A stretch of 64,000 nucleotides of DNA from Qipengyuania proteolytica (GTDB lineage Bacteria; Pseudomonadota; Alphaproteobacteria; Sphingomonadales; Sphingomonadaceae): assembly GCF_019711565.1 (NCBI RefSeq), contig NZ_JAIGNN010000001.1, positions 124,001 to 188,000 on the forward strand. The letters are read 5' to 3'. The position numbers were made by a program, and so were the translations under genes. Below, in pieces: positions 56,010 to 57,855 of the stretch. Numbering within the stretch: the stretch's first letter is position 1; the number at the start of each line of letters is the position of its first letter. The notes below the pieces were generated by a model. It ran no database searches. It worked only from the letters and a program-made list of their open reading frames with translations, and had not been told where the DNA came from.

Positions 56010-57146
56010 ATGCCGATGAACCGCGTTTGCGAGATGACCGGGGCGGAATTTCCGCTGTTTGCCTTCAGCCACTGCCGCGATGTCGTGGCGGCGGTGAGCA
56101 AGGCGGGCGGCTTTGGCGTGCTCGGCGCGACGCGGTTCAGCCCGGACCAGTTGGAAGAGGAGCTCGCCTGGATCGACTCGCATGTCGACGGTGCGCCCTA
56201 TGGTGTCGACGTGCTCGTGCCCGAGGTGATCGACCCGCGGGTGCGCGAATTGGGCGACAACAGGAGCCGCGCGGCCGCCATCGATCCCGCCTACCAGGGC
56301 TTCGTCAACGAGGTGCTCGGCCATTACGGCATCGCGCCGGAGCCCGAAATGCCGATCCTGCGCGAGCGCATGGGCATCACCCCCGAGAACGGCCTTGCCT
56401 TGATGGAGGTCGCCTTCCGCCATCCGATCCGCCTCATCGCCAATGCGCTCGGTATCGCGCCGTCGGCGATGATCGAGGAGGGCAAGAAGCGCGGCGTGCC
56501 GGTCGCCGCGCTGGTCGGCGCCAAGGAGCACGCGATCCGGCAGGCCGAGGCGGGGGTCGACATCATCGTTGCGCAGGGCACCGAGGCGGGCGGGCATTGC
56601 GGCGAGGTGTCAACGCTGGTGCTGATCCCCGAAGTCGTCCGCGAACTCGCGCGCGCCGGTCACAAGATCCCGGTGCTTGCTGCGGGCGGAATCATGACCG
56701 GCGGTCAGATGGCCGGGATGATGGCTGCAGGCGCGCAAGGCGCGTGGACCGGATCGATCTGGCTGGCGACGCCCGAGGCAGAGACGAGCGAGGCGTTTCG
56801 CGAGAAGATGGTGGCCGCGCGCAGCCGCGACACGGTCCGCTCGCGCAGTCGTACCGGCAAGCCCGCGCGCCAGCTCAAGACCGCATGGCACGATGCGTGG
56901 GACTCCGCAGATGGCCCGGGCACGCTGCCGATGCCGCTTATGGGAATGGTGTCCGAACCCGCCTTCGCCCGGATCGAGCGCGAGGCGGCAGCCGGCAACG
57001 CAGAGGCGCGCGAGCTGGTGAGCTATTTTGTCGGCCAGGGCGTGGGCCTTGTCGAGCAGGTCAGATCGAGTCGGCAGGTGGTCCAGGATTTCCGCGAGGA
57101 GTTCATAGAAGCGGTGAGCGGCCTTGCCGGGCTACTGAACGAATAG
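56010..57146 (+). CDS. Nitronate monooxygenase (2-nitropropane dioxygenase family)
   Basis: 378 residues, FMN-dependent TIM-barrel enzyme of the NMO/enoyl-reductase-like superfamily. Glycine-rich flavin contacts GGFGVLGATRF near residue 36, AQGTEAGGHCGE near 190 and VLAAGGIMTGGQMAGMMAAGAQGAWTGS near 227. Converts alkyl nitronates to carbonyl compounds, but family substrates vary. ATG 56010 is chosen because GGGAG lies eight bases upstream; an upstream ATG would add 18 residues. It follows scoB after about 65 bases. Confidence 0.88.
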   Translation: MPMNRVCEMTGAEFPLFAFSHCRDVVAAVSKAGGFGVLGATRFSPDQLEEELAWIDSHVDGAPYGVDVLVPEVIDPRVRELGDNRSRAAAIDPAYQGFVNEVLGHYGIAPEPEMPILRERMGITPENGLALMEVAFRHPIRLIANALGIAPSAMIEEGKKRGVPVAALVGAKEHAIRQAEAGVDIIVAQGTEAGGHCGEVSTLVLIPEVVRELARAGHKIPVLAAGGIMTGGQMAGMMAAGAQGAWTGSIWLATPEAETSEAFREKMVAARSRDTVRSRSRTGKPARQLKTAWHDAWDSADGPGTLPMPLMGMVSEPAFARIEREAAAGNAEARELVSYFVGQGVGLVEQVRSSRQVVQDFREEFIEAVSGLAGLLNE

Positions 57147-57192
57147 GACCCTCGCCAGACCCGCAAAGCTGTGAGATAACCGCATCATCGGT

Positions 57193-57855
57193 TTGCACAA
57201 CGCCTTCCGGAACCGATTCCTCAATGTGCTCGGGTCGATCTACATTTACAACGAACAATGAGGCTACACCTCGCTCAATCGCGTGCTCGAAGCGGTGCGC
57301 GCCCGCTGCCCGGACGATGCCGCGTTCATCGCCGCCGTCGAGAAACACCGGGCGGACGAGGAAAAGCACTATCGCATGTTCCGTCGATGGTTCGAGTTGC
57401 GCGGGCAGATGCCGCTCAAGGTCGACCGGACCTGCGGCCATATCGATCATTTCATCGAGACGGTCTTCGGCTGCACGATCGACGAACTCGATACCCAGGC
57501 GATCGTGGCCGATGGCGATGAATTCGAGAAGCTGTGCCGTGTCATCATGATCACCGAACAACGCGGAATGGACCAGGTCGAGGTGCTGCTGAAGAATTCC
57601 CATATCCGCTCCGACAAGGCGATGAAGCGTATCTTCGAGGTCGTGGAGAAGGACGAACCGAGCCATTGGAGGCCGTATGACACATGGCTCCGCACGCATG
57701 GTCGCCGCCCGAAGCCACGCTGGCGCGAGCGCTGGACCGACTACTGGATCCATAAATCGCTGATGCTGGCAAAGCTTCCCGCGGTGTTCGTCAATCGCAA
57801 GAGTCCGCGACTGTCGAGCTGGCCAGATGAAGACCCCGACGCTTACGCCATCTGA
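57193..57855 (+). pseudogene. Di-iron ferritin-like protein gene interrupted by an in-frame TGA
   Basis: The reading frame from 57193 (TTG) runs HNAFRNRFLNVLGSIYIYNEQ, meets TGA at 57259-57261, then continues in frame to 57855 with GYTSLNRVLEAVRARCPDDAAF and a full ferritin-like body. The four-helix pattern of metal ligands is split by the stop: first Glu in YIYNE lies before it; EEKHY (ExxH), MITEQRG (Glu) and DEPSHW (ExxH) lie after. A protein starting at GTG 57283 would lack the first helix. Sequence both sides fits one family, so this looks like a nonsense mutation (for example GGA or TGG to TGA), a sequencing error, or, less likely, recoding. Confidence 0.65.

Follow-up and report, generated by a model that had tools for sequence, protein, structure and literature searches.

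The window analysed here comprises 64,000 nucleotides of Qipengyuania proteolytica (bases 124001–188000 of contig 1; the genome is 3.11 Mb in 7 contigs), and all features discussed lie on its forward strand. At positions 57193–57855 a reading frame is interrupted by a TGA at 57259–57261 that is present in the assembly. As the initial annotation described, the frame carries YIYNE before this stop and EEKH, TEQRG and DEPSH after it. The frame does not occur by chance: relatives have a single gene spanning the same stretch. The neighbouring genes, a nitronate monooxygenase upstream and a CoA-transferase family III gene downstream (both assigned with Pfam), cover nearly all of their Pfam models, in agreement with the earlier view that the flanks are intact. 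A genome search found one copy of the interrupted gene in this genome.

In relatives the gene encodes a single protein of roughly 220–235 residues. In an alignment of 25 sequences, Glu23, Arg25, Glu58, His61, Glu124, Glu157 and His160 were invariant, giving the pattern E / ExxH / E / ExxH, which we take to be a di-metal site. The full ligand set is thus invariant among the relatives, as expected from the original assignment of the intact gene to the ferritin-like proteins. The codons of this set are all still present in the window DNA, that of Glu23 (57253–57255), the putative first metal ligand, lying ahead of the TGA. The interruption therefore falls just after the first ligand, as had been stated. 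The nearest intact orthologs come from Erythrobacteraceae (Erythrobacter sp. AP23, Qipengyuania marisflavi) and are about 88–92% identical to the window over the 190 residues that they share with it. They have the same metal-ligand pattern and, where looked at, the CoA-transferase gene downstream. Unlike the window, they retain the ATG start, Arg25 and a complete helix 1.

Sequence searches did not place the family in any named family of Pfam, NCBIfam, PHROGs or PDB. Pfam DUF455 (PF04305) was the target of scores of 21.2, 21.4 and 16.5 bits against a curated cut-off of 34.3, and the NCBIfam model for R2-like ligand-binding oxidase (R2lox) scored 11.5 and 13.7, far below its cut-off of 194; NCBIfam and PHROGs as a whole gave no match near significance, and the PDB sequence search gave none. 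The model of the AP23 protein is helical and confident (mean pLDDT 93.6, pTM 0.90), with helix 1 formed by residues 3–40, and it has the helical bundle fold of ferritin-like enzymes, with Z values up to 14.9. In VIA-align its matches were tied: MiaE (Z 14.9, 3.1 Å over 172 residues), a protein with aldehyde-deformylating oxygenase activity (Z 14.8, 2.7 Å over 171) and R2lox (Z 14.3, 3.6 Å over 192). These values should be read in the light of unrelated helical models and bundles, which can also reach Z of about 14, so that even 14.9 is only slightly above what helical bundles can attain by chance. Foldseek returned no match for the AP23 model at E of 0.001 or below; aldehyde-deformylating oxygenases topped the list, with E above 0.01. 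The intact protein thus resembles these three enzymes in fold; they are known by structure, whereas the family described here has no sequence match in PDB.

The comparison set contained one genome per species, and the relatives taken from the scan of genome contigs were the best 80 of 178. After removal of duplicates (L038, L039, L042 and L047) and fragments (L035 and L036), 95 loci were examined. Codon 25 was readable in 93 of them; the two that did not fit the pattern were L056, which has a variant motif and also carries arginine at this codon, and L072, which is cut by a contig end. It turned out that all 92 readable relatives encode arginine at codon 25 (CGC in 73, CGG in 15, CGT in 3 and AGG in 1), where the window has TGA. 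The three nearest relatives use CGG, so that the change to TGA involves two bases.

Contrary to what the initial annotation had implied, the stop is not the whole story; a second lesion was overlooked. The family start is the codon at 57187–57189, not the TTG at 57193 from which the frame had been read. In the alignment this codon is ATG in twelve close relatives and ATC in the window (in L046 and L048, relatives outside this group of twelve, the start lies four codons further 5′). In the window, no ATG, GTG or TTG was found in frame 5′ of 57187 as far back as the TGA at 57172–57174, and TTG 57193 (codon 3) is the only in-frame start-type codon left before the TGA at 57259. Further changes affect nearby residues that are otherwise invariant: D13N, H24Q and D31N. 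The original start of the gene is dead and, with both the start and codon 25 lost, the normal full-length protein can no longer arise in the ordinary way. Compared with intact orthologs, the gene therefore carries two disabling lesions of the kind that define a pseudogene, ATG to ATC and Arg25 to TGA. According to the initial annotation, homologs beginning at GTG 57283 would refute a broken gene. No such homologs were found: the upstream SIYxYNE motif is in frame in all 92 readable relatives, a count that uses inferred starts for the relatives and leaves aside a remnant with a deleted 5′ half (G073).

Could ribosomes nevertheless read through or recode the TGA, so that the full-length protein is made and the gene is functionally intact? 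The frame is open before and after the stop and, in the passages cited from Belinky et al. (PMC7918605), in-frame stops are described as widespread among bacterial genes of low dN/dS, and TGA as leaky. The gene in the window shares with those genes an in-frame stop and low pairwise dN/dS in the rest of its length. In contrast to them, as far as those passages describe them (PMC7918605), its start is also lost, its stop occurs in no readable relative and its constraint varies along the gene. Neighboring invariant residues have changed as well. Moreover, the only in-frame start-type codon left upstream of the stop is TTG 57193, and overcoming the TGA would not suffice to restore the gene, because the original ATG is gone too. 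The earlier suggestion that readthrough rescues the gene is thus unsupported, and we consider it highly improbable. Recoding of the TGA as some other residue was rejected in view of the uniform arginine of the relatives together with the loss of the start. A frame-shifted restart at ATG 57258 was also rejected, as it opens an 87-codon frame that is out of register with the family.

We next compare the front and the back of the gene. The front, codons 1–32 of the old gene (57187–57282), holds M1I, D13N, H24Q, R25stop and D31N, whereas the 190 codons still open from GTG 57283 onward (57283–57855; codons 33–222) retain Glu58, His61, Glu124, Glu157 and His160. Of the columns that do not vary among twelve close relatives, 25 lie in the front and 101 in the back; the window differs at 5 of the former and at none of the latter (Fisher test, p = 2.2e-4), the split at codon 32/33 being the next in-frame start codon and having been chosen after the data were seen. 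When the start and stop codons are left out, the counts become 3 of 23 and 0 of 101 (p = 0.0057); against the closest four relatives only, they are 5 of 27 and 3 of 147 (p = 0.0026). The same test applied to each of the twelve relatives gave no departure at 20 such columns of the 5′ part and between 0 and 8 departures in the 3′ part; G030, G014, AP23 and L040 have none there either. The G073 remnant, which served as an undated positive control, departs at 10 of 61 invariant columns at which the window departs at none. Constraint in the window thus shifts at about GTG 57283: it is lost in codons 1–32 only and not along the frame, and the last six-sevenths of the gene appear, from their sequence, to be under selection still.

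Weaker measures, private changes and pairwise dN/dS, do not clearly mark out the window. With three sisters, changes private to the window are 3 silent and 6 amino acid-changing in the front against 20 and 7 in the back (p = 0.037); inclusion of a fourth sister gave 2/4 and 12/5 (p = 0.13). Pairwise dN/dS of the window is 0.12–0.22 in codons 1–31 and 0.05–0.09 in the rest. However, this does not single it out, because the ratio for AP23 against G014 is likewise raised in the front (0.145, compared with 0.050 in the rest). In the tree, AP23 is the sister of the window (support 88).

The main rival to the interpretation that we favor below is a plain young pseudogene: the gene died recently through start loss or a nonsense mutation, yields no useful product, and its front cluster of changes is due to chance or is partly older. 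We regard this as a serious possibility, albeit one that falls well short of being probable. The private changes in the back of the gene (20 silent and 7 changing) are like those of intact sisters (18/8, 16/5 and 16/11), as expected after a recent death, and His24 is not an absolute requirement, being Tyr in 3 of 93 loci. On the other hand, two lesions and three further invariant-residue changes in the first 32 codons, with none at the 101 invariant columns behind them, make uniform decay unlikely by the test given above, with or without the two lesions. A very young pseudogene would be just as clean behind, so that the back part is compatible with one. The initial annotation had concluded from the undecayed downstream part that either the event is young or the TGA is read through. 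The part is indeed undecayed, which fits youth; yet youth is only one way to explain it, because the first 32 codons already hold five invariant-residue changes.

The five changed invariant codons all fall between 57187 and 57279, and the cluster might therefore stem from a single event, such as a burst of local substitutions or the exchange of a short tract with another sequence, or be artefactual, with about 90 bases misassembled or miscalled. We think this improbable. The dS of codons 1–31 against relatives (0.66–0.93) is similar to that of the rest (0.92–1.18), which gives no suggestion of a foreign tract. Sequencing error had also been proposed as the cause of the stop, and we set 400 kb of this genome against a stretch of equal length from G030. 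An initial list, in which 31 of 144 frames were flagged, seemed to indicate an assembly full of broken genes, but antisense and over-extended frames had been counted in it alongside real genes. Once frames were filtered by codon position and the identity limit was relaxed slightly, 5 of 91 orthologous coding-like frames were still flagged. After inspection, only the gene studied here stood. Three of the other four were aligned: one, which we take to be DNA polymerase I, has an over-extended start, one is a composite of an antisense and a real frame, and one was called antisense from composition alone. The fourth, which overlaps a 412-codon frame, presumably that of S-adenosylmethionine synthase, was judged over-extended from coordinates and frames. 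Substitution errors are thus not rife, and an error-ridden assembly is unlikely.

How the gene is normally started bears on the severity of the ATC. Start regions were scored in 80 of the 93 loci (79 relatives and the window); of the others, 12 lacked an ATG within range, and the upstream sequence of one was too short. By crude patterns and with no shuffle control, 12 of the 15 close-clade loci, the window among them, have a GATAAT-like element between −10 and −15, and 17 of the 80 scored loci have one at any position; a Shine-Dalgarno-like stretch was seen in only 17 of the 80. The window keeps GATAAC, a −10-like element by the same kind of crude pattern, at 57175–57180, seven bases 5′ of the old start. 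At the corresponding position, visual inspection of many Sphingomonas loci shows a pair resembling TTGAC ... TAGCGT. Across the start regions of L017–L117 and window positions 57142–57189, promoter-like elements were observed directly before the ATG in many relatives.

Since promoter-like elements abut the ATG and Shine-Dalgarno-like stretches are few, the whole family may be leaderless. Judging from these upstream regions, transcription of the gene in the relatives probably begins at or near the ATG and yields a leaderless mRNA. Zymomonas mobilis belongs to the same order as the source organism. Leaderless transcripts occur in that species, according to the cited part of PMC7566282. On leaderless mRNAs of E. 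coli, initiation at codons other than AUG is far less efficient, with a similar trend in Caulobacter and with exceptions, for example GUG in Mycobacterium smegmatis (PMC9031893). Given this inefficiency, ATC would be a severe lesion if the transcript begins at the start codon.

The explanation that we favor, tentatively and at a little under an even chance, is that the old start is dead and that ribosomes still translate, or did until very recently, the 190-codon rest by initiating internally near GTG 57283. Both lesions, the lopsided distribution of changes and the intact 3′ frame are direct observations, and an unspoiled 190-codon frame behind a front with five invariant changes fits translation from near codon 33. 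The ancestor would have been a ferritin-like di-metal gene on a leaderless transcript starting at or near the ATG. The ATG would then have become ATC, leaving the first 32 codons untranslated and free to drift; in this order of events, the TGA at codon 25 would be one of the drift changes and not the sole cause of loss. Translation of the remaining codons would start at GTG 57283 or close to it, probably with low output. A product initiated there is without Glu23 and most of helix 1, so that no single polypeptide would carry the complete ligand set, and it would probably lack a normal di-metal site. The model of this 190-residue product, built from a shallower alignment, has a mean pLDDT of 81.5 and pTM of 0.77, compared with a mean pLDDT of 93.6 for the full AP23 protein.

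Evidence on the internal start itself is mixed. In the window, the 50 bases surrounding GTG 57283 are predicted to fold less stably (−15.2 kcal/mol) than in three relatives (−22.1, −19.0 and −17.5 kcal/mol), which slightly favors such a start; no excess RNA structure was found in eight folds (z from −0.46 to 0.73). The lack of a good ribosome-binding site at GTG 57283 counts against such a start: the sole Shine-Dalgarno-like stretch ahead of this codon, GAGG at 57260–57263, lies at a distance of 19 bases and is base-paired in the predicted structure. None of the 92 readable relatives is without the upstream part, which counts against a shortened form. The same holds for the loss of an invariant ligand and most of helix 1 from the short product, and for the lower confidence of its model. 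Termination–reinitiation has been documented for archaea and E. coli, its efficiency being expected to drop with distance (PMC6728339). Here some ribosomes would first have to start at ATC or at TTG 57193. A stronger version of the proposal is that the ferritin-like protein shed its first helix and ligand and was selected as a shorter protein of changed function, with a new internal start arising after loss of the leaderless AUG and the old 5′ end serving as leader. We consider this unlikely.

If the short form is made, the locus offers a natural test of a ferritin-like bundle that lacks the first ligand helix, and an example of a gene shortened once its start codon was lost, on an apparently leaderless transcript. 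If it is not made, the locus represents the ordinary loss of a gene that is absent from most genomes of the genus. Such a gene would usually be filed as another nonsense pseudogene. It illustrates that the visible stop is not the only lesion, perhaps not even the earliest, and that a single gene can be constrained differently at its two ends.

Loss is common in the genus, in line with the young-pseudogene explanation. Among 60 genomes surveyed, including that of the window, only 20 had a match at E of 1e-20 or below, and two of these hold damaged copies: G067 (L036, L037) has a frame change in mid-gene, and G073 (L035) has lost the 5′ half, its 3′ remnant adjoining the CoA-transferase gene. 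A gene so often absent or broken suits a dispensable function and argues against a shortened functional form. Taken with the above, the locus mostly reflects ordinary gene loss in progress, with a hint of a shortened protein that is possibly still used. A metagenome-assembled relative (L065:389-1051) has an internal in-frame stop after residue 98, on a contig with a stated coverage of 1.6, so that an error may be the cause.
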